Of a DNA stretch of 23,071 bases, positions 2,192 to 15,555 are shown piece after piece. Below the pieces are notes generated by a model. It ran no database searches. It was not told the DNA's origin and was given only the letters and a program-made list of their open reading frames with translations. Source of the stretch: a virus; IMG/VR virus record IMGVR_UViG_3300037246_001792, positions 1 through 23,071 of that record. The stretch is one strand, 5' to 3'. A program made the translations under genes and the position numbers. Every line of letters starts with the position of its first letter. The stretch's first letter is position 1.

Positions 2192-2554
2192 ATGGGATTA
2201 TTAGGAAAATTTGTCAAAGGTAGATTAAGAAAAAAACTTGGCATTACAAAAATACAAAAATCACTTGATCAATTACCAGGACTCGTAGCTAGCGGTGATA
2301 ATAAGATAATAAAAGCCATTGAAGGCCTCAGCGATGAGGGGGTTGAAGGTGAGCCAAATTTTAGTCAACAAGAAGGAATTACTAACACCGTAGATCCTAC
2401 AATGTCTAGTCCAGATATTGGAGGAGTACTTAACCCACCTACAACATTTGATCCAAATACTAAAGCCGCGGCTGCTGGAATGTTTGGGGAAACAATGGAA
2501 GGATCCTTTGATAGAAATATGGGAGGAGCGGAAGAATTAGAAGAATTAGGATAA
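2192..2554 (+). CDS. Unrecognised 120-aa protein, basic N terminus and acidic low-complexity C terminus
   Basis: I do not recognise this family. The N-terminal 25 residues are strongly basic and amphipathic (GKFVKGRLRKKLGITKIQK). The rest is Gly/Pro/Asp-rich and probably unstructured, ending in EELEELG. No Cys, no membrane segment and no enzyme motif is visible. The start lies two bases after the preceding stop. It belongs to the run of small charged proteins between the chaperonins and the lysis genes, but it lacks their SPLN motif. A virion-associated or DNA-binding role is possible from charge and position only. Confidence 0.6.
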   Translation: MGLLGKFVKGRLRKKLGITKIQKSLDQLPGLVASGDNKIIKAIEGLSDEGVEGEPNFSQQEGITNTVDPTMSSPDIGGVLNPPTTFDPNTKAAAAGMFGETMEGSFDRNMGGAEELEELG

Positions 2555-2567
2555 ACAAATAAAAATT

Positions 2568-2801
2568 ATGAAAAAATACAAATCACCACTTAAAATGATA
2601 GAAGACAAGTCTCATACACATGCTTCTAAAAACAATTCTGTAGGTATAGTTGGGGAATCTCAAATATGGGATGGTCCATTAGATCAAGATGGAAGAACAC
2701 ATGGGAAAGGTTGGAGCGCTGGGCTTTATGGAATGAAGCTAAAATTAGGAGCTGTTCCTTATACACCAGGTCCAATAACACAAATTGCAAAAGGAAAATA
2801 A
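2568..2801 (+). CDS. Small KSPL-motif protein (77 aa), unknown function
   Basis: A 77-aa basic protein opening MKKYKSPLKMIEDKS, so a KSPL motif sits at residues 5-8, as in the 59-aa protein at 3708. The middle is Gly/His-rich (SHTHASKN, then DGRTHGKGWSAGLYG), and the C terminus has a Pro-rich PYTPGPITQIAKGK. It has no hydrophobic core that would make a stable globule, so it is probably a short bound or unstructured protein. An AT-only leader (AAATAAAAATT) precedes the ATG. The next gene starts two bases after its stop. An overlapping frame extends leftward from the next gene through this one, but this frame carries the family motif at its start. Function unknown; it belongs to the shared-motif set. 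Confidence 0.7.
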   Translation: MKKYKSPLKMIEDKSHTHASKNNSVGIVGESQIWDGPLDQDGRTHGKGWSAGLYGMKLKLGAVPYTPGPITQIAKGK

Positions 2802-2803
2802 TT

Positions 2804-3703
2804 ATGCCATACAAACAAGGAAGAAATCCAATTTCAAGAAAAAATTCTCCATTAAACGCAAGAAATCCGTTTAGTAGAGTATCACCATTAAGCATGAAGG
2901 CTGAAGATGGTCAATCTCATAAAGAATTAAGAAAAGCCGATAAGTTAAAAGAACATAAAGCTGAAATGCATAGTAAAGGTAGAGATCCAGAGCAAGTAGA
3001 CGCACAGAGAGAAGAAGATAATACTCAAGCAGCTAATCAACCTATGGGCCCTGAGAGAAGATCATCTCAATCTCCTTTACATTCTCATGAAGAAAAAGTA
3101 AAACAAATAGAAGCAAAAATTAAGGCACTAAAAAAGCGATATGGAGAGGCAGATTTTTATGAAAGAAAAGATGTTCAAGCATTGTTTAAACAAAAAACAG
3201 CAGCTGAAGAGTCTCACAAAGAAGGAGGTCCTTCAAGAAAATCTTCATCACCTGTTAAGGCAAAGTGTCCAGAAGGGTGGACGCTAAATCCAGACAAAAA
3301 GGGAAAACCGTGTCTTCCACCAGAAGATAGAAAAGATATACCGAAAAAGGGAGAAAGACTAGCTCCATCAAGAAAATCTAGCTCTCCATTAAATGAGGAC
3401 GAAGTTGAGTCACCAGAAAAAAAAGATAAAGTTGAAGCAGTAAATGAAATTAAAAAAGAAGAGAAGAGTGATGGCGGAAAAGTTGAAAAAATAGAAACAA
3501 AAGAAAAAGCTGATACTACACCAAAGCCAAAATCTCGTAGAGAAAAGAAAATAGATAAAGCTGAAAAATCAGGGAAAACTAGAAAAGCTAGGAGATTAAA
3601 AGGTAGAGAAGAAAGAAAGAAAGTAAGAAAACAAAGAAAAGAAGGTAAAATAAGTAGAAGTCAAAAAACCTACGCTATAAAAGAAAGTAGAAAAAATCAA
3701 TAA
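2804..3703 (+). CDS. SPLN-repeat, lysine/arginine-rich virion-type protein (299 aa)
   Basis: Highly charged and probably mostly disordered. The frame stays open upstream to 2666, but the ATG at 2804 is chosen because it follows the previous stop by two bases and gives the leader MPYKQGRNPISRKNSPLN, nearly the same as those of the proteins at 5260 and 5486. Motif copies lie at residues 10-18 (ISRKNSPLN), 23-30 (FSRVSPLS), 84-92 (ERRSSQSPL), 143-152 (PSRKSSSPVK) and 188-197 (PSRKSSSPLN), with a degenerate ISRSQ at 283-287. A helix-forming stretch occupies about 95-135. A two-cysteine CPEGW...KPC unit lies at 155-170. Residues about 243-299 are very rich in Lys and Arg (REKKIDKAEKSGKTRKARR and onward), suited to binding nucleic acid. 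I infer an internal virion or DNA-associated protein. No enzyme domain is visible. Confidence 0.75.
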   Translation: MPYKQGRNPISRKNSPLNARNPFSRVSPLSMKAEDGQSHKELRKADKLKEHKAEMHSKGRDPEQVDAQREEDNTQAANQPMGPERRSSQSPLHSHEEKVKQIEAKIKALKKRYGEADFYERKDVQALFKQKTAAEESHKEGGPSRKSSSPVKAKCPEGWTLNPDKKGKPCLPPEDRKDIPKKGERLAPSRKSSSPLNEDEVESPEKKDKVEAVNEIKKEEKSDGGKVEKIETKEKADTTPKPKSRREKKIDKAEKSGKTRKARRLKGREERKKVRKQRKEGKISRSQKTYAIKESRKNQ

Positions 3704-3707
3704 TTTT

Positions 3708-3887
3708 ATGAAAAAGTCACCATTACAAATGTTAGGTCTTAATAAAAAAAAGAAACCAACTACTCAACCCCCATTAACAGAGGAAGAAAAGAGAAGATTG
3801 CATGCAGTATCTTCAGTAAATTATGGTAAAGTAGTTTCTTCAGGTGGTGTTGATTTGGGAATAATAAAAAACAAAAAAAATAAATAA
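3708..3887 (+). CDS. KSPL-motif microprotein (59 aa)
   Basis: A short gene with the same compact spacing as its neighbours: ATG four bases after the upstream stop (leader AATTTT) and TAA eleven bases before the next start. The product begins MKKSPLQMLGLNKKKK, placing KSPL at residues 3-6, very like MKKYKSPLKM in the 77-aa protein at 2568. A Pro/Glu-rich linker (PTTQPPLTEEEKRR) follows, then a small uncharged segment VSSVNYGKVVSSGGVDLG and a basic tail. Codon use matches the neighbours. Function unknown; it is supported mainly by context and the shared N-terminal motif. Confidence 0.65.
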   Translation: MKKSPLQMLGLNKKKKPTTQPPLTEEEKRRLHAVSSVNYGKVVSSGGVDLGIIKNKKNK

Positions 3888-3898
3888 AAAAGTAAATC

Positions 3899-4852
3899 AT
3901 GATAATAAATCCAAGCACATTAACAAATGGATTAAGAGTTGTACCAAGTGATAAAATAAATATTCCAGGCTCAACTTTAAGATTCTCTGGAACGTGTAAT
4001 GCAAATACAGCTAATAAACTAGTTGATACAACCAGACCGTTACAGATAAATCCTACACGAGGTAGTTTCGTACAATCTTTAGAAGCAGCACCAAGTCAGG
4101 GTCAAGTTGCGGATCAAGGAGTACAAGTAGGTGATGTAGTATATAACACAACTGACTGGACGGTAGGACTTGTTAAAGCTGTTGATAGTGCGGTACAATT
4201 AAGCATTATGGACGCTGATGGTATAGATTTAGATTTATTTCCTGCAGGAACTGAAAATTATTCAATTTACCAAGCTAATGGTCTTTATAGAGTTCCAACT
4301 GGATCTTATGGATTTAGATTAGATGCTGGTGTAACTTTATCTAATATAAGTACAAATACCTCAGCTGGATTTAGCAATGCTGTTGATCAAGCAATTGTTC
4401 CATCTGGAGGAACTTATATAGATGCAATGACTCCAGGAAGAGGTGCTACATTTACGGCAACCACTGTTGGTGGTGCTGTTACAAATGTAAAAGTAGTAGC
4501 GGTAAGTACTTATAGTTTAACAGATCTTGAAGGTTTGACACTTGTATTTAATACTGCAGCTATTGAAGCAGCTTTCGGTGGTGGTGGTACAGGTGCTGTA
4601 ACTGTTACAATTGGTAACGTAGCATCAGGCGATGAAGAAGAAATTGTTGGAAGTGATTCAACTGGACAACCAAAAGCTTTCCAAATTTGGAACGGAGAAA
4701 CTACAGACGATATAGATGTAGGGGTTATTACAGCAGGCGGTGATGATATAATTATATCTAAATTACCAGCCGGAACAATGTCTCCTTTAGCAGTGATTAG
4801 AGTAAAATCTACAGGTACAACTGCTAGTAAAATAATATACGCATATTCATAA
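3899..4852 (+). CDS. Beta-rich virion or decoration/fibre-like protein (317 aa)
   Basis: Rich in Gly, Thr, Val, Ala and Asp and poor in Lys, unlike the charged proteins around it, as expected of a beta-sandwich virion protein. The N-terminal part has a VGDVVYNTTDWTVGLVKAVDS unit (about residues 77-97) and SIYQ near 122-125. The middle (about 169-240) is a Gly-rich module: GGTYIDAMTPGRGATFTAT, then GGAVTNVKVV, then GGGGTGAVTVTIG. Similar modules appear in the giant tail protein at 18426. The C-terminal domain (about 258-317) ends IIYAYS, with strands around DIIISKLPAG and LAVIRVKS, reminiscent of decoration or head-fibre C-terminal domains. No signal peptide. Role inferred as capsid decoration, fibre or tail accessory. 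Its location among the SPLN proteins suggests that the block is virion-related. Confidence 0.6.
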   Translation: MIINPSTLTNGLRVVPSDKINIPGSTLRFSGTCNANTANKLVDTTRPLQINPTRGSFVQSLEAAPSQGQVADQGVQVGDVVYNTTDWTVGLVKAVDSAVQLSIMDADGIDLDLFPAGTENYSIYQANGLYRVPTGSYGFRLDAGVTLSNISTNTSAGFSNAVDQAIVPSGGTYIDAMTPGRGATFTATTVGGAVTNVKVVAVSTYSLTDLEGLTLVFNTAAIEAAFGGGGTGAVTVTIGNVASGDEEEIVGSDSTGQPKAFQIWNGETTDDIDVGVITAGGDDIIISKLPAGTMSPLAVIRVKSTGTTASKIIYAYS

Positions 4853-4879
4853 AAAATTAATAATTAAAAACAATAAGAA

Positions 4880-5257
4880 ATGGCACACCCAATTCACAAA
4901 CACATGCACACTCATATTACAAGAGATAATGTGAAGGCAGCAATTAAAGATGATAAAGCACATATCGACTATTTAAAAAGAGATGTACTAGATGATCAAA
5001 AATTTCATGCAAAAGATAAAGACGAAAAGCAAACAGCTGATGAAAAACATATATCTAAATTAGCAGGAGATATTAAACATGATGAGAAAAAAGAAGGAGT
5101 ATCAAGAAAAAGCTCCCCAGCTAATCAAAATGTTAAGGAAGAAGATGTTGTTCAAAAAGAAGCAACAGAAAGTAACGAAGGAGGATTTGGAACAGCTACA
5201 GAAGATTCAGAGGCTGTAATTGATTTTGAAAAAACTTTAAATACAAAAATAAATTAA
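4880..5257 (+). CDS. Charged SPLN-family protein with His-rich N terminus (125 aa)
   Basis: Starts MAHPIHKHMHTHITRDN with five His in the first twelve residues, a possible metal-binding patch. A long, charged, helix-forming segment follows (about 17-72, with regularly spaced DDKAHID, DQKFHAKDKDEK and DEKHISKL). Residues 73-83 are GVSRKSSPANQ, a clear variant of the SRKxSPLN motif in which L is replaced by A. The C terminus is acidic and Gly/Thr-rich. No enzymatic motif and no membrane segment. It is separated by two bases from the next SPLN gene. Its function is not known to me; I read it as one of the motif-tagged cargo or internal proteins. Confidence 0.65.
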   Translation: MAHPIHKHMHTHITRDNVKAAIKDDKAHIDYLKRDVLDDQKFHAKDKDEKQTADEKHISKLAGDIKHDEKKEGVSRKSSPANQNVKEEDVVQKEATESNEGGFGTATEDSEAVIDFEKTLNTKIN

Positions 5258-5259
5258 TC

Positions 5260-5475
5260 ATGGCATATACACAAAGTAACCCCATAAGTCGTAAAGCTTC
5301 CCCTTTAAATGAAGGAAAAGGCTGCGCAAAAGACGAAGGTGGAAAAGGCTGTATTGATAAAGACGAAAAAGGTTGGTTCATCTGGAATAATAAAAAAGGT
5401 GGTATCTTTAAAAGATGTGATAGCAAAGAAGATTGCGAAAAGATCTTAAGAGTACCAGCAGTTCACGGAGGATAA
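5260..5475 (+). CDS. SPLN-leader cysteine-containing small protein (71 aa)
   Basis: The leader MAYTQSNPISRKASPLN (residues 1-17) matches those of the proteins at 2804 and 5486 in position and sequence. Behind it sits a compact unit of about 50 residues with four Cys (22, 31, 53, 59; spacing C-x8-C-x21-C-x5-C) and an aromatic core GWFIWNNKKGGIFKRC. This pattern fits a small metal- or disulfide-stabilised domain displayed after a tag. There is no signal peptide, so if it folds in the cytoplasm zinc is more likely than disulfides. Start chosen because the leader begins exactly at the ATG. Function unknown. Confidence 0.7.
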   Translation: MAYTQSNPISRKASPLNEGKGCAKDEGGKGCIDKDEKGWFIWNNKKGGIFKRCDSKEDCEKILRVPAVHGG

Positions 5476-5485
5476 AACACAATCT

Positions 5486-5917
5486 ATGCCTTATACACAA
5501 AATTGGGGTATTTCCCGATCACAATCTCCATTAAATAATAATGAGAGGAGGACTATAATGGAAGATCCTGTAGAAAAAGAAATTCCAGCGTTTGCTATAC
5601 CAGAAGTAGATGTTAATGCGGAAGATAAGGATATTATTAAACAAAATAACCAAGAAGCCGCTATGCAAGCTGCAAGTATTTCTGGTGGTGGTGGTTCTTT
5701 TTTAACAAAACAAGTTCTTAAAGAAGGAGTTAAAAAATATGTTGCCCCAGCAATTGGTAAAGCATTAGGAGTAATGGGAATGTTTTTCACATCTCAAAGT
5801 GCTCACGCTAGACCCCCAGGAGAAATGGTAGATGGGGAGTATATAAAATATAGTGATTTTGATAATCCAAAATGGGGTGAAACATCACATGGTAAAAGAT
5901 TTAGCAAGGAAAAATAA
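5486..5917 (+). CDS. SPLN-leader protein with C-terminal hydrophobic segment (143 aa)
   Basis: Opens MPYTQNWGISRSQSPLN, the third copy of the shared N-terminal leader. An acidic linker follows (about 26-60), then SGGGGSF, an amphipathic segment FLTKQVLKEGVKKYVAPAIG and a short hydrophobic stretch KALGVMGMFFTSQSAHA (about 88-104), too short for a confident membrane span. The C-terminal 40 residues are polar. A perfect GAGGAGG sits six bases before an in-frame internal ATG (codon 25, base 5558), so a shorter 119-aa form without the leader may also be made. SAHA followed by R resembles a signal-peptidase box but is not N-terminal, so I do not call export. Function unknown. Confidence 0.65.
   Translation: MPYTQNWGISRSQSPLNNNERRTIMEDPVEKEIPAFAIPEVDVNAEDKDIIKQNNQEAAMQAASISGGGGSFLTKQVLKEGVKKYVAPAIGKALGVMGMFFTSQSAHARPPGEMVDGEYIKYSDFDNPKWGETSHGKRFSKEK
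5545..5560 (+). promoter_or_regulatory. Strong internal Shine-Dalgarno plus in-frame ATG
   Basis: GAGGAGG at 5545-5551 lies six bases upstream of ATG 5558-5560, in frame with the 143-aa protein. Almost no other gene here has such a site; most have A/T-only leaders. It would let ribosomes make a 119-aa product lacking the SPLN leader. The same bases also encode Glu-Arg-Arg, so the match could be coincidental. Confidence 0.4.
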
Positions 5918-5920
5918 ATT

Positions 5921-6241
5921 ATGGCATTTAAATTAGAACCACCATTTAAAAAAAGACCTCCGGTATATGAGAGAGAATTAGAAGAAGGCTGTTTGGGTAA
6001 AGGTAATAAAAATGGCACTATATTAATAGCTGATGATTTGCCACAGGAAGATCATGAAAGTATTATAGACCATGAAGAAATTCATATAGATCAAATTAAA
6101 AGGGGAGATTTAGATTATGATGATGAAAATGTATATTGGAAAGGGAAAGCTTATCCAAGATCTAAAATGAAAGAAGGTGCTCCAAATTTACCATGGGAAA
6201 AAGAAGCATACGATAAAACTGATAATTTCGAAAAATTATAA
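5921..6241 (+). CDS. Small HExxH zinc-metallopeptidase-like protein (106 aa)
   Basis: HEEIH at residues 51-55 fits the HExxH zinc-binding helix, preceded by the hydrophobic/acidic run ESIIDHEEIHIDQI. A third-ligand candidate is the Glu in PWEKEAYD (E95), about 40 residues downstream, as in gluzincin-type minimal peptidases. ILIADD before the helix could form the edge strand. At 106 aa it is a minimal catalytic core with no signal peptide or cell-wall-binding domain. It lies two genes upstream of a holin, so a lysis or virion-associated peptidase role is reasonable but inferred. Alternatively it is a processing protease for virion proteins or a non-catalytic relative. The motif is directly visible; the substrate is unknown. 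Confidence 0.6.
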   Translation: MAFKLEPPFKKRPPVYERELEEGCLGKGNKNGTILIADDLPQEDHESIIDHEEIHIDQIKRGDLDYDDENVYWKGKAYPRSKMKEGAPNLPWEKEAYDKTDNFEKL

Positions 6242-10438: not shown

Positions 10439-12832
10439 ATGAATACATACGCAAATCCAAATAGCGCCTTCCCTAGCCAAACTGTGCCAGATGTTGAAAA
10501 ATCTTCCATAGATTATGGTAGACAAGTTGCACAAGCTATAGAAGGTGAATGGTGGAGACAAGGAGGTAATGGTACTCGGTTCGCTACTTCTTATAATAGA
10601 TTCCATACTTTAAGATTATATGCGCGTGGAGAACAACCAGTTCAAAAATATAAAGATGAATTAGCTATTAATGGTGATATGTCTTATATGAATTTAGATT
10701 GGAAACCAGTTCCAGTTGTTTCTAAGTTTGTAGATATAGTTGTAAACGGGATGGCTAATAAAATATTTGAAATAAATGCATTTGCTCAAGATCCTATATC
10801 ATTAAAAAGAAGAACAGACTATGCTAATGCTATTTATGAAGATATGTTAGCTAAGCCTTATTTGCAAGAATTACAAGGAACTTTAGGTATTAATCAATAT
10901 CAAAGTCCTGATCCAGCTAATTTACCTGAAAATAAAGAAGAATTAGATCTTCATATGCAATTAAGTTATAAACAATCTGTAGAAATTGCTGAAGAAGAAG
11001 TGATTGATAATACCTTAGCTAAAAATAAATTTGAAAATACTAAGAAAAGATTTTATTATGATTTAGTTACATTAGGAATAGGAGCAGTAAAAACACAATG
11101 GAACAAAGCGAATGGGGTTACTATAGATTATGTAGACCCAGCTAATATGATTTATTCATATACTGAAGATCCTAATTTTGATGATATTTATTATGTAGGA
11201 GAAATAAAACAATTAACTATTCCTGAAATAGCTAAACAATTTCCACATTTAACTGAAGATCAATTAGAAAAAATCCAACAAACTAAAAGTTATAGTAATC
11301 AACAACTATACGGATGGCAAACTTATGACCAAAATACTGTGCAAGTTTTATTCTTTGAATATAAAACTTATAACACTCAAGTATTTAAAATAAAAGAAAC
11401 TGATACAGGTTTGGAAAAAGCATTAGAAAAACCTGATACTTTTGACCCACCAGAAAATGATAATTTTTCTAGGGTAAGTAGAAAAATAGAAGTTCTTTAT
11501 AAAGGGTGTAAAGTAATAGGGAACAATGAATTAGTACAATGGGAGTTAGCAGAAAATATGACAAGACCTTTTGCTGATACTACTAAGGTTGAAATGAGTT
11601 ATGCAATCGTAGCTCCAAGAATGTATAAAGGTAGAATAAATTCTATTGTAAGTAAGATAACTGGGTTTGCTGATATGATTCAATTAACTCATTTAAAACT
11701 ACAACAAGTAATTGCTAGAATGGTTCCAGACGGTGTATTTTTAGATATGGATGGGCTTGCTGAAGTTGATTTAGGTAATGGTACTAATTATAATCCAGCT
11801 GAGGCGTTAAATATGTATTTTCAAACTGGTAGTATAGTGGGGAGATCTATGACTCAAGAAGGAGATATGAATCCAGGTAAAGTTCCTATTCAAGAACTTG
11901 CTACATCTACTGGCCAAGGGAAAATACAAAGTTTAATTAGTACTTATCAATATTATTTACAATTAATAAGAGATGTGACCGGACTTAATGAAGCTAGAGA
12001 TGGTTCAGTGCCAGATAAAAGTACTTTAGTAGGTTTACAAAAAATGGCAGCTAACCAATCTAATGTAGCTACTAAACATATATTAGATGCGGGATTATGG
12101 TTAATATTAAGAACATGTGAAAATATAGCTTTAAAAGTTGCAGATTCTTTAAACTATCCTTTAACTTTAAATTCTCTTAAAAGTTCTATATCTACATATA
12201 ATACAGGAACTTTAGCAGAAATACAAAACTTAAATCTTCATGATTTTGGTATATTTTTACTATTAGAGCCAGAAGAAGAGGATAAACAAATGTTAGAACA
12301 GAATATTCAAATGTCTATACAACAAGGAGGAATTGATTTAGAAGATGCTATTGATATTAGACAAATCAAAAATTTAAAACTAGCTAATGATGTTTTAAAA
12401 CAAAAGCGTAAAAAGAAAACTGAAGCAATGCAAGAAGCTCAAAAAGCTCAAGCAGAGGCAGAAGGGCAAGCTCAAGCTCAAGCATCTGAGGCGGCGGCTA
12501 TGGCTGAAGTGCAAAAGAACGAAGCTATGACTCAAGCTAACATTCAATTTGAACAAGCTAAATCTCAAATGGAAATTCAAAGATTGCAAACAGCCGCCCA
12601 ATTGAAACAACAAGAAATGCAATTCCAACATCAATTTGATATGGAATTAAAAAAGATAGAAGTGCAAGCGATGCAAGAAAAGGAGAATAGAATTGAAGAT
12701 CGCAAAGATAAAAGAACAAAAATGGAGGGTACTCAACAAAGTAAAATGATTGAGCAAAGAAACACTAGTGGATTACCTACAGATTTTGAAAAAGAAACCC
12801 CAGAACAATTTAGTGGTGCTGCGGGTGTTTAA
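10439..12832 (+). CDS. Portal protein with long Gln/Ala-rich coiled-coil C terminus
   Basis: A 797-aa protein directly after the terminase, the standard place for the portal ring at the unique capsid vertex. Core features include an N-terminal RLYARGEQPVQKYK region (about 60-73), NLDWKPVPVVSKFVDIVVNGMANKIF (86-111), a long helical stem region with SKITGFADMIQLTHLKLQQVIARMVPDGV (about 405-430), and the VTGLNEARDGSVPDKSTLVGLQKMAANQS segment (about 515-543), which I recall from Bacteroidota and marine phage portals. From about residue 655 to 760 the chain is a Gln/Ala/Glu-rich coiled coil (QAEAEGQAQAQASEAAAMAE and so on), consistent with a barrel or crown extending into the head, ending in a polar tail. 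No frame break. Confidence 0.88.
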   Translation: MNTYANPNSAFPSQTVPDVEKSSIDYGRQVAQAIEGEWWRQGGNGTRFATSYNRFHTLRLYARGEQPVQKYKDELAINGDMSYMNLDWKPVPVVSKFVDIVVNGMANKIFEINAFAQDPISLKRRTDYANAIYEDMLAKPYLQELQGTLGINQYQSPDPANLPENKEELDLHMQLSYKQSVEIAEEEVIDNTLAKNKFENTKKRFYYDLVTLGIGAVKTQWNKANGVTIDYVDPANMIYSYTEDPNFDDIYYVGEIKQLTIPEIAKQFPHLTEDQLEKIQQTKSYSNQQLYGWQTYDQNTVQVLFFEYKTYNTQVFKIKETDTGLEKALEKPDTFDPPENDNFSRVSRKIEVLYKGCKVIGNNELVQWELAENMTRPFADTTKVEMSYAIVAPRMYKGRINSIVSKITGFADMIQLTHLKLQQVIARMVPDGVFLDMDGLAEVDLGNGTNYNPAEALNMYFQTGSIVGRSMTQEGDMNPGKVPIQELATSTGQGKIQSLISTYQYYLQLIRDVTGLNEARDGSVPDKSTLVGLQKMAANQSNVATKHILDAGLWLILRTCENIALKVADSLNYPLTLNSLKSSISTYNTGTLAEIQNLNLHDFGIFLLLEPEEEDKQMLEQNIQMSIQQGGIDLEDAIDIRQIKNLKLANDVLKQKRKKKTEAMQEAQKAQAEAEGQAQAQASEAAAMAEVQKNEAMTQANIQFEQAKSQMEIQRLQTAAQLKQQEMQFQHQFDMELKKIEVQAMQEKENRIEDRKDKRTKMEGTQQSKMIEQRNTSGLPTDFEKETPEQFSGAAGV

Positions 12833-12843
12833 TTAATTTTATA

Positions 12844-12856
12844 ATATTATATTATG
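12844..12856 (+). promoter_or_regulatory. A/T-only translation leader (copy 1)
   Basis: The 13-mer ATATTATATTATG ends on the start codon of the scaffold gene and is repeated exactly at the start of the gene at 15619. There is no Shine-Dalgarno. It fits Bacteroidota translation starts, where A/T-rich unstructured leaders act in place of purine boxes. The repetition could also reflect simple low complexity. Confidence 0.4.
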
Positions 12857-14059
12857 TCAAAAACAAAAACAGAAACTAAGCCTGAGATGACTAAAGAAGT
12901 CAAATCAGAAGGTGGAGATATGAAAATGAAATCAAAACCTAAAATGAAAAAATTTGCTACAGATGAGGTAACTAAAGTAGATTTAACTAAAGACCCCAAT
13001 GTAAAATTGGAAGAGCCTATCAAAGTAGATTTAACTAAAAAACAAGAAGACGATGCCATTCAAATCGGAGAAACAAAGACGGTGGATGTGGAAGAACGAA
13101 CCGGAGATGGCGAAAAGGTGGACGCTGGAGGAGACACAACCACTGAAGAGTCCAGCTCGCCTATTGAAGAAATTCAAGAGGTCGCCGGGGAGTCGGTGCA
13201 AAATAAAGTAATAGATGAGGTTTCAGATCCTAATGCTAAACTACCTGAAAATATTGAAAAACTAGTTAACTTCATGGAAGAAACTGGAGGTACAGTAGAG
13301 GATTATGTAAGATTAAATGCTGATTATTCTAATGTAGATGAAGAAAAGCTATTAAAAGAATACTATACAAAAACTAAACCACATTTAAATGATGAAGAAA
13401 TTACTTTTGTAATGGAAGAAAATTTCTCATTCGACACAGATATTGACGAAGAGCGAGACGTCAAAAGAAAAAAACTCGCTAAAAAAGAAGCAGTTGTAGA
13501 AGCCAAAACCTTTTTGGAAGATTTAAAAACTAAGTATTACGATGAGATCAAGTTGAGACCAGGTATAACTCAGGATCAACAAAAAGCAACGGAATTCTTC
13601 AATCGCTACAATAATGAACAGGAATTAGCTGAGCAAAAGCATGAAAAATTCCTTAACAACACTAAACAACTTTTTTCTGATGAATTCAAAGGTTTTGATT
13701 TCGAAGTTGGTGAAAAGAAATTTAGATATGGTGTTAAGGATCCCAATGCAGTTGCAGAAAATCAATCTAATCTAAACAACTTCGTCGAGAGGTTCTTGGA
13801 TAAAGAAGGTTATGTTAAAGATACGAGAGGTTATCATAAAGCTATGTATGCTGCACAAAATATAGACAAAATAGTAAATCATTTTTATGAACAAGGTAAA
13901 TCTGATGGGATTAAAACAGTTGTAGATGGTTCTAAGAACCCTACTGCTGCTACTCGCCAAACAGCGGGTGATATTAATCTTGGTGGATTTAAAGTTCGTG
14001 CTATAGACGGTGTAGATAGTTCAAGATTAAAAATCAAACGAAGTAAATTTAACAATTAA
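12854..14059 (+). CDS. Scaffolding-type protein (401 aa)
   Basis: Lies between the portal and capsid genes, the usual place of a capsid scaffold or head-assembly protein. It is highly charged and helix-rich, with no catalytic motif. Residues 1-115 are low-complexity and acidic/Lys-rich, with a repeated KVDLTK unit (VTKVDLTKDPNVKLEEP then IKVDLTK). A central helical region (about 120-290) includes ERDVKRKKLAKKEAVVEAKTFLEDLK. The C-terminal part, with NQSNLNNFVERFLDKEGYVKD and KAMYAAQNIDKIVNHFYEQGKSDGI, ends in a basic RLKIKRSKFNN tail, typical of scaffolds that bind capsid protein. The DNA for residues about 76-116 is unusually GC-rich (see the findings). I cannot see a protease domain. Scaffold assignment is from position and composition. 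Confidence 0.68.
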   Translation: MSKTKTETKPEMTKEVKSEGGDMKMKSKPKMKKFATDEVTKVDLTKDPNVKLEEPIKVDLTKKQEDDAIQIGETKTVDVEERTGDGEKVDAGGDTTTEESSSPIEEIQEVAGESVQNKVIDEVSDPNAKLPENIEKLVNFMEETGGTVEDYVRLNADYSNVDEEKLLKEYYTKTKPHLNDEEITFVMEENFSFDTDIDEERDVKRKKLAKKEAVVEAKTFLEDLKTKYYDEIKLRPGITQDQQKATEFFNRYNNEQELAEQKHEKFLNNTKQLFSDEFKGFDFEVGEKKFRYGVKDPNAVAENQSNLNNFVERFLDKEGYVKDTRGYHKAMYAAQNIDKIVNHFYEQGKSDGIKTVVDGSKNPTAATRQTAGDINLGGFKVRAIDGVDSSRLKIKRSKFNN

Positions 14060-14070
14060 AATTAATAATT

Positions 14071-15555
14071 ATGGGTGTATTAAGTCCTCAGTTTGGGAGT
14101 CTTATTCCATCACAAACAATGCAAGCTTTAGAAGGAAACTATCTAAACTTTGCTACAGGTGGTGCGAATGATTTCGCTCAACAATATCTACCGGAAATTT
14201 ATGAAGCAGAGGTAGAGCGTTATGGAAACAGAACGTTAGGTGGCTTCTTAAGAATGGTTGGCGCTGAAATGCCAATGATGTCAGATCAAGTTGTTTGGTC
14301 TGAACAAAACAGATTACACATCGCTTATGATGGCGTAAGCTGTACTGCTGCAGGTTCGCAGTTAACTATTAACAATGGTACTAACGTACTAATGCCGAAC
14401 ATGACAGTAGTAATTATGGATCCAAACGATCCTTCATTTACAGTAAAAGCTATTGTAGATAATTCAGGTGCAATTGATCCAGTTGGTATGGGTGCTGCTA
14501 ATTTAGTAGACGTTATACCTTATACTCAAGCAAATGCAAATCCAGGGCTAGCTAAAACTAACCTTAAAGTATTTGTATACGGTTCTGAGTTTGGAAAAGG
14601 ATCTACGGGTCCTGCTACAGCAGCTACAAGTGCTGGTGGAGATCCTTGGTCTATTCAACCTTCTTTCTCAACATTTAGTAACAAACCAATTATAGTAAGA
14701 GACAGATACGCAGTAAGTGGATCTGACGCTTCTCAAATTGGTTGGGTAGAAGTTGCGACAGAAGATGGTGCTAGTGGTTATCTATGGTATTTAAAAGCTG
14801 AAGGTGAAACTAGATTAAGATTCGAAGATTATTTAGAAATAGCAATGGTTGAAGGTGAACTAGCTAATTTAGCTCAGGTTGCTGCAATCGTAGCGGCTGT
14901 TCCTTCTTTTGCTGGTGCTGGCGCAACTGCTGGTTCTATTGGTACTGAAGGTTTATTTGCTGCTATTAATAATGGTGGTAATGTACTTTCTGGCTATGCT
15001 GGAGGGTTACAAGACTTTGACCAAGTTCTAGAAAATCTAGATACTCAAGGAGCTATTGAAGAAAATATGCTTTTCTTAGACAGAAAAACTGAGTTATTAT
15101 TTGATAACATGTTAGCGACACAAAACTCTTATGGAGCTGGAGGTACATCTTATGGTGTATTTGAAAACTCTGAAGATATGGCGCTTAACTTAGGTTTCTC
15201 TGGATTTAGAAGAGGTTCATATGACTTCTATAAAACTTCTTGGAAATACTTAAACGACGCTTCTACAAGAGGTGGTTCTTCTAACTTTGTTAACGGTGAC
15301 AACATCGATGGTGTATTAGTACCAGCTGGTACTTCTTCAGTATACGATCAGTTACTAGGAACAAACATTAGACGACCATTCTTGCATGTAAGATATAGAG
15401 CTTCTCAAGCAGATGATAGAAGAATGAAATCATGGTTAACAGGTTCTGTTGGCGGTGCTGCTACTTCTAATTTAGATGCTATGGAGGTAAATTTCTTATC
15501 AGAAAGATGTCTTTGTACTCAAGCTAGAAATAATTTCGTATTATTTACAGCTTAA
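14071..15555 (+). CDS. Major capsid protein
   Basis: A 494-aa protein following scaffold, with strong codon bias and a dedicated terminator, as expected of the most abundant virion protein (HK97 fold in related phages). It begins GVLSPQFGSLIPSQTMQALEGNYLNFATGGANDF (residues 2-35), with an N-terminal arm, then YLPEIYEAEVERYGNRTLGGFLRMVGAEMPMMSDQVVWSEQNRLHIAY (about 40-88), the pattern I recall from Bacteroidota and crAss-like phage capsid proteins. The middle has beta-rich insertions; the C terminus has a long RRPFLHVRYRASQADDRRMKSWLTGS helix/strand region and ends in ERCLCTQARNNFVLFTA. It is likely a substrate of the phage chaperonins, by analogy with other phages that carry GroEL or GroES homologues. 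Confidence 0.85.
   Translation: MGVLSPQFGSLIPSQTMQALEGNYLNFATGGANDFAQQYLPEIYEAEVERYGNRTLGGFLRMVGAEMPMMSDQVVWSEQNRLHIAYDGVSCTAAGSQLTINNGTNVLMPNMTVVIMDPNDPSFTVKAIVDNSGAIDPVGMGAANLVDVIPYTQANANPGLAKTNLKVFVYGSEFGKGSTGPATAATSAGGDPWSIQPSFSTFSNKPIIVRDRYAVSGSDASQIGWVEVATEDGASGYLWYLKAEGETRLRFEDYLEIAMVEGELANLAQVAAIVAAVPSFAGAGATAGSIGTEGLFAAINNGGNVLSGYAGGLQDFDQVLENLDTQGAIEENMLFLDRKTELLFDNMLATQNSYGAGGTSYGVFENSEDMALNLGFSGFRRGSYDFYKTSWKYLNDASTRGGSSNFVNGDNIDGVLVPAGTSSVYDQLLGTNIRRPFLHVRYRASQADDRRMKSWLTGSVGGAATSNLDAMEVNFLSERCLCTQARNNFVLFTA

Follow-up and report, generated by a model that had tools for sequence, protein, structure and literature searches.

A conserved Ser-Pro leader on unrelated small late proteins of a marine podovirus lineage and its proposed role in virion loading

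The capsid-targeting sequence (CTS) of bacteriophage T4, MKTYQEFIAE, is a short N-terminal peptide carried by unrelated, often small basic proteins (IPI, IPII, IPIII, and Alt) and is removed from them by the prohead protease (gp21, Peptidase_S77). Its first 10 residues are enough for packing, and it is seen as a means to pack diverse proteins (PMC9026906, PMC3012670, and PMC7411985). Short-tailed phages also hold protein cargo within their particles: P22-like and crAss-like phages have ejection and cargo proteins. In crAss-like phages, which infect Bacteroidetes, gp45 and gp46 of crAss001 are cargo proteins of the particle (PMC10172136).

The DNA analysed here (the window) is a 23,071-base IMG/VR record of a marine podovirus. 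It contains groEL, groES, small late genes, and genes for terminase, a P22-like portal (10439-12832), a presumed scaffold, the capsid protein (14071-15555), and the tail. The portal of MW202828 shares 49% identity with that of the window, and the portals of Flavobacterium, Cellulophaga, and Tenacibaculum phages share 25-40%. Going by the isolated relatives, viruses of this lineage probably infect marine Flavobacteriia. The small genes form a block directly 3' of groEL and groES (3-1746) and before holin-like and terminase genes. An earlier note, made from the DNA letters alone, described a short motif (SRKxSPLN or KSPL) in all but one of the seven genes at 2568-5917, on proteins otherwise unrelated, and this description holds. 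All genes of the block discussed here are on the plus strand. The 77-aa protein (2568..2801) has the short form KSPLKM at residues 5-10 (2580-2597). The Lys/Arg-rich 299-aa protein (2804..3703, pI 9.9) starts with the long-form leader MPYKQGRNPISRKNSPLN (2804-2857) and has four more SP copies, five in total. It is followed by a basic 59-aa protein (3708..3887) starting with MKKSPLQM (3708-3731), again the short form. In the His-rich 125-aa protein (4880..5257) the tag is internal (SRKSSPAN, residues 75-82, 5102-5125). The 71-aa protein (5260..5475) consists of the leader MAYTQSNPISRKASPLN (5260-5310) and a four-Cys body (5311-5472), and the 143-aa protein with a hydrophobic segment (5486..5917, pI 6.1) starts with MPYTQNWGISRSQSPLN (5486-5536). 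The motif is absent from the remaining gene, which encodes a beta-rich, acidic 317-aa protein (3899..4852, pI 4.3) that weakly matches a tail fiber family of PHROGs. A fold search with this protein returns mainly unnamed viral proteins, and its relatives range from about 160 to 321 aa in length owing to a variable middle region. Two neighbouring families are tagged in relatives and not in the window: the 120-aa protein (2192..2554; MNKSPLNF and MSKSPLNF in relatives) and a metallopeptidase-like 106-aa protein (HEEIH, 5921..6241), where the leader is degenerate (KKRPPVY; KKTSPVY and KKNSPIY in relatives). PHROGs and Pfam give no informative family for the tagged proteins of the window, and a tblastn search of isolated phages with the 299-aa and 71-aa proteins gives no useful match.

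The pattern SP[LA][NKQHS] has nine matches in the ten proteins of the block (1,364 aa), exactly in the six proteins named above. Residue shuffles of the block give a mean of 0.2 matches, and none of 20,000 shuffles reaches nine. A search elsewhere in the window, which the earlier note had suggested, finds no match in the remaining 4,916 aa. The tag is longer than first noted: the 299-, 71-, and 143-aa proteins have a common N-terminal leader of 17-18 residues, whose full form is M[AP]Y.Q..NP[IL]SRK.SPLN. When the three starts are aligned, MPYKQGRNPISRKNSPLN of the 299-aa protein stands over MAYTQSN-PISRKASPLN (71 aa) and MPYTQNW-GISRSQSPLN (143 aa). The leaders of the 299-aa and 71-aa proteins are 72% identical over 18 residues, and their bodies do not match apart from Lys-rich stretches. 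Indeed, among all six tagged proteins only weak matches are found outside the tag, again in Lys-rich stretches. From gene to gene, the leaders use different codons at almost all synonymous positions (e.g., TCA, AGT, or TCC for Ser and AGA, CGT, or CGA for Arg). Therefore, it is the peptide itself that is conserved, and the leaders are not recent copies of one gene start. In the predicted structure of the 71-aa protein (AlphaFold, mean pLDDT 57, too weak for a fold search) the leader is disordered and the body has a beta-beta-beta-alpha arrangement.

Related loci were gathered via the portal (80), the 77-aa family (80), and the four-Cys family (68). Over 232 related loci, the proteins of 450 aa or less have 145 copies of SPLN compared to 3 in composition-preserving shuffles, counts that are not phylogenetically independent, and the permuted control LPSN does not occur. 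The earlier note would have withdrawn its reading had the motif been no commoner in relatives than expected, and these counts show the opposite. The tag is biased toward the N-terminus: 277 SP[LAVMIF] starts lie within the first 20 residues versus 29 in shuffles, again over related loci that are not phylogenetically independent. The residues most common after SP are L and then N. The tag has a long form, M.Y.Q..NP[LI]SRK.SPLN, and a short form, M..KSPLN, with the core SP[LFI][NK]. When proteins are clustered after masking of the tag, more than 25 clusters have it in at least part of their members, and the leader-class proteins alone have at least 16 unrelated bodies. The tag also comes and goes within a family. 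The 77-aa family is tagged in loci L008, L011, L033, and L054 and untagged in L032, L065, and L072, and no tag is encoded upstream of these untagged orthologs.

In four long records (62-69 kb), 22 of 135 small genes on the late strand are tagged versus 2 of 136 on the other strand (p 8e-6). These tagged genes form two groups, one within the groES-terminase block and the other past the gene for a very large virion protein. Relatives of the His-rich 125-aa protein have several SP copies. In L054, SPAKMKSPMKK repeats are found that are like histone H1 tails, and SPAK/SPMKK repeats exist in some Lys-rich relatives. Some families that are separate in the window exist as fusions elsewhere. In L033:2578-3111 the tagged 120-aa family is joined to the 59-aa body, and in L190 (from 4569) and L151 (from 8073) the His-rich protein is joined to the four-Cys domain. 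Such fusions are consistent with a common destination of these proteins.

Another small frame of the window encodes a 52-aa protein, MPFKSEKQRRWMWKNEPEMAKRWT...KSPARLLKKFKR (13053..13211, plus strand), with a KSPA motif. It is nested within the presumed scaffold gene (12854-14059) and read in a different frame. In about 30 related loci this inner frame is likewise open, with 39 distinct sequences, of the type MPF.SEKQR[RK][WYF][ML]W. Since both frames are kept in about 30 loci, the 52-aa frame looks like a real overprinted gene. The end of the protein, KSP[ATVN].LL, resembles the tag, and it is possible that this is a further tagged protein.

A scan of all IMG/VR DNA with the leader alone finds 86 stretches, and the SP core is also present in 38 of 82 reading frames. 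The window-type portal exists in 18 of the 24 leader records tested (51-84% identity), the other six being short (4-11 kb), and in none of 16 control records with chance leader matches. The tag is absent from the isolated relatives elemo, phi38:1, phi19:3, phi13:2, Gundel_1, and MW202828, whose portals are 49% or less identical. The tag is thus tied to one capsid lineage. As the isolated relatives are untagged, their virion data cannot decide the role of the tag. No description of the tag was found in the literature searched, which leaves out most subscription journals.

T4-like marine records have a reused N-terminal leader of their own. It has the form MKKIIKLNENDIENLVKKIIKE / MKITKSQLKQIIKEEL, also MKKIRITESELVDLIEKLVKE, and is found on several neighbouring proteins. 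For example, K.NE.DIENLVKKIIKE or MKITKSQLKQIIKEEL recurs on several neighbouring proteins in L248:10015-13296, L249:533-2990, and L250:8709-9218, and in L248 these genes lie between the S77 protease and the scaffold/gp23 genes. No isolate is matched by tblastn of this leader. The reused leaders of the T4-like records are likely a family of capsid-targeting sequences. Like the SP leader, one such leader exists on many proteins, the same four-Cys cargo included. Unlike the SP leader, it is helix-like, acidic and hydrophobic, and occurs with Peptidase_S77 and gp23, and it is probably cleaved.

The four-Cys body is found in three settings: free-standing (L182 and L186), behind the SP leader in the lineage of the window, and behind the other leader in large records. 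The four-Cys body of the window is identical to that of the T4-like L166 at 44 of 52 positions (85%). In this T4-like virus the leader is CTS-like, and the gene adjoins the major capsid gene. The sister podoviruses L011, L087, L091, and L096 have four-Cys bodies behind the same SP leader as the window, yet in the tree (53 columns) the body of the window groups with that of L166 (support 100/99), apart from all four. The cargo of the window is nearer to a T4-like virus than to its sister podoviruses, and therefore a cargo was exchanged while the leader was kept. Peptidase_S77 is found in 9 of the 13 large records that have the four-Cys domain behind the other leader. Two large records were sampled at the capsid locus. 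Both have a confirmed gp23 (E 5e-71 or better), with the four-Cys gene close to the protease, scaffold, and gp23 genes. Most four-Cys proteins of the large records have an acidic [LI]..E stretch directly before the domain (e.g., LIKEE/GKGC and LNEQE/GKGC), which would suit a gp21-like cut. An Ackermannviridae protein (L253:3926-4126 and L254:3929-4120) starts with MKTFGEFLTE, similar to the T4 CTS, and continues with a segment that weakly resembles the four-Cys domain (E 2e-6 among 6,363 sequences). It is not relied on here, because it was chosen from a weak collection-wide match (E 0.4 or worse) and the fold is small.

Other cargos are found behind the SP leader in relatives and not in the window. 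They include a DUF5872-like domain (L223, L224, L226, L228, and L229) and DUF6321 (L351, L353, L361, L375, and L416); the families CW.GYKR.PGT and AHNAP are further examples in relatives. The DUF5872-like domain also exists behind a CTS-like leader (L181 and L183). In the T4-like cyanophage Syn19, T4-GC 119 (L339:4449-5612), encoded beside the small terminase gene, has DUF5872-like and DUF6321 segments on one protein. Both domains are also found in S-SCSM1 ORF29 (L427:1693-3246), whose segments are identical to the podovirus cargos at 35 of 39 and 36 of 63 positions. ORF29 was deposited as a virion protein by a group that analysed virions by mass spectrometry; it is the product name in the deposit that makes the link, and the accessible part of the S-SCSM1 paper does not name ORF29. 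Another protein with a DUF6321-like segment, S-CREM2 gp137, is detected in virions (PMC10665884). T4-GC 119 and ORF29 have the same domains as the tagged relatives but differ from them in that a single long protein holds the domains and has no SP leader. Note that cyanophage proteins of the T4-GC 119 type consist of small domains in a row (DUF5872-like, DUF6321, and short Cys/Trp segments), which exist as separate proteins elsewhere.

The SP leader is similar to the T4 CTS in being a short N-terminal peptide on unrelated, often small basic proteins. The two differ in several ways. Their sequences are unrelated (M.Y.Q..NP[LI]SRK.SPLN compared to MKTYQEFIAE-like), the SP tag also has internal and repeated copies, and its virus is a P22-portal-type podovirus. 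Furthermore, while the T4 CTS is removed by gp21, no such protease is found for the SP tag. None of 24 leader records has Peptidase_S77, nor has any of 7 long podovirus records, and neither S78 nor ClpP is found in 11 records; the records may be incomplete, several being fragments. As no protease of these types is found in the records of the lineage searched, the tag probably stays on the protein, or is removed by another protease. The crAss001 cargo resembles the proposed role of the SP tag in being protein cargo within a short-tailed phage particle. It differs in that no common short tag is described in the accessible part of the report (PMC10172136), and none is found in annotated genes of the stretch scanned here, which is half of crAss001; N-terminal SP matches there lie outside annotated tagged genes.

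We propose that the SP leader is a lineage-specific virion-loading tag, which would resemble the T4 CTS in its working without being a member of the T4 type, and give this reading a probability of roughly 0.65. A short disordered peptide on many unrelated late proteins would dock on a lineage-specific assembly protein as the prohead forms, and the attached small proteins would become enclosed. They would then probably be ejected into the host along with the DNA. The scaffold, the portal, and an inner capsid protein are candidates for the docking site, because the tag follows that lineage. Among the roles offered in the earlier note, a docking or targeting signal is thus the one best supported: the tag is modular, predicted to be disordered, carried by late genes, and confined to one portal lineage, and its cargos are shared with T4-like viruses. 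That it acts in this way is what we infer from these features. Several points speak against virion loading. The T4-like leader used for comparison is itself a putative targeting sequence. The closest model differs in its defining step, since no prohead protease is found. Internal and repeated copies are superfluous for a plain N-terminal address, though they are perhaps added binding sites. The DUF5872-like and DUF6321 cargos belong to relatives and not to the window, and the isolated relatives, with portals at most 49% identical, are untagged.

The SP motifs might instead be SPxx/SPKK elements that contact DNA, the tagged proteins being histone-like condensers of an AT-rich genome that are packed by DNA binding alone. 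In favour of this are the strongly basic nature of the 299-, 77-, and 59-aa proteins and the resemblance of the L054 repeats to histone H1 tails. However, L and N, both non-basic, are the commonest residues after SP, single N-terminal copies also exist on neutral or acidic proteins (e.g., the 143-aa protein), and the conserved M.Y.Q..NP of the long leader would be needless for DNA binding. This explanation is held to be unlikely. A partner in the infected cell, such as phage GroEL, the membrane, or the lysis machinery, would account for the place of the block, which has groEL/groES on one side and the holin-like and terminase genes on the other, and for the tagged metallopeptidase-like family of relatives. 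It explains poorly why full-length records have a second tagged cluster past the gene for the very large virion protein, and why T4-like viruses have the cargo domains next to capsid genes or within virion proteins. Recruitment to the cell rather than the virion is held to be improbable.

A protease or kinase site, also offered in the earlier note, would fit a short, disordered sequence with Ser-Pro. Yet a conserved leader of 17 residues is longer than a site would require, the S77, S78, and ClpP families are missing from the records searched (several of them fragments), and no phage kinase is noticed in the window. The kinase version finds no support, and either version is held to be very improbable. 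Since many of the proteins are Lys- and Ser-rich and counts over relatives are not independent, chance or composition has to be considered, as does recent duplication of one gene start. These are refuted by the shuffles of the window and of the relatives, by the LPSN control, and by the codon differences, and hardly any weight is left to them. For virion loading itself, a more specific form is about evenly balanced between true and false. In this form, a permanent, uncleaved loading tag unrelated to the T4 CTS would have arisen in a marine podovirus lineage, drawing on a pool of small cargos that is also found in T4-like viruses, and a change of leader alone would move a cargo between virus types.

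If virion loading is the role of the tag, a short sequence would flag virion-borne, probably injected, proteins straight from metagenomes, in a lineage that is uncultured, marine, and well represented in IMG/VR. DUF6321, the DUF5872-like domain, and the four-Cys domain, all domains of unknown function, would be packaged cargo, which is a testable hypothesis. It would also suggest a second, possibly protease-free, route for loading proteins into phage particles, and a swap of leaders would let unrelated viruses use a common set of delivered proteins.
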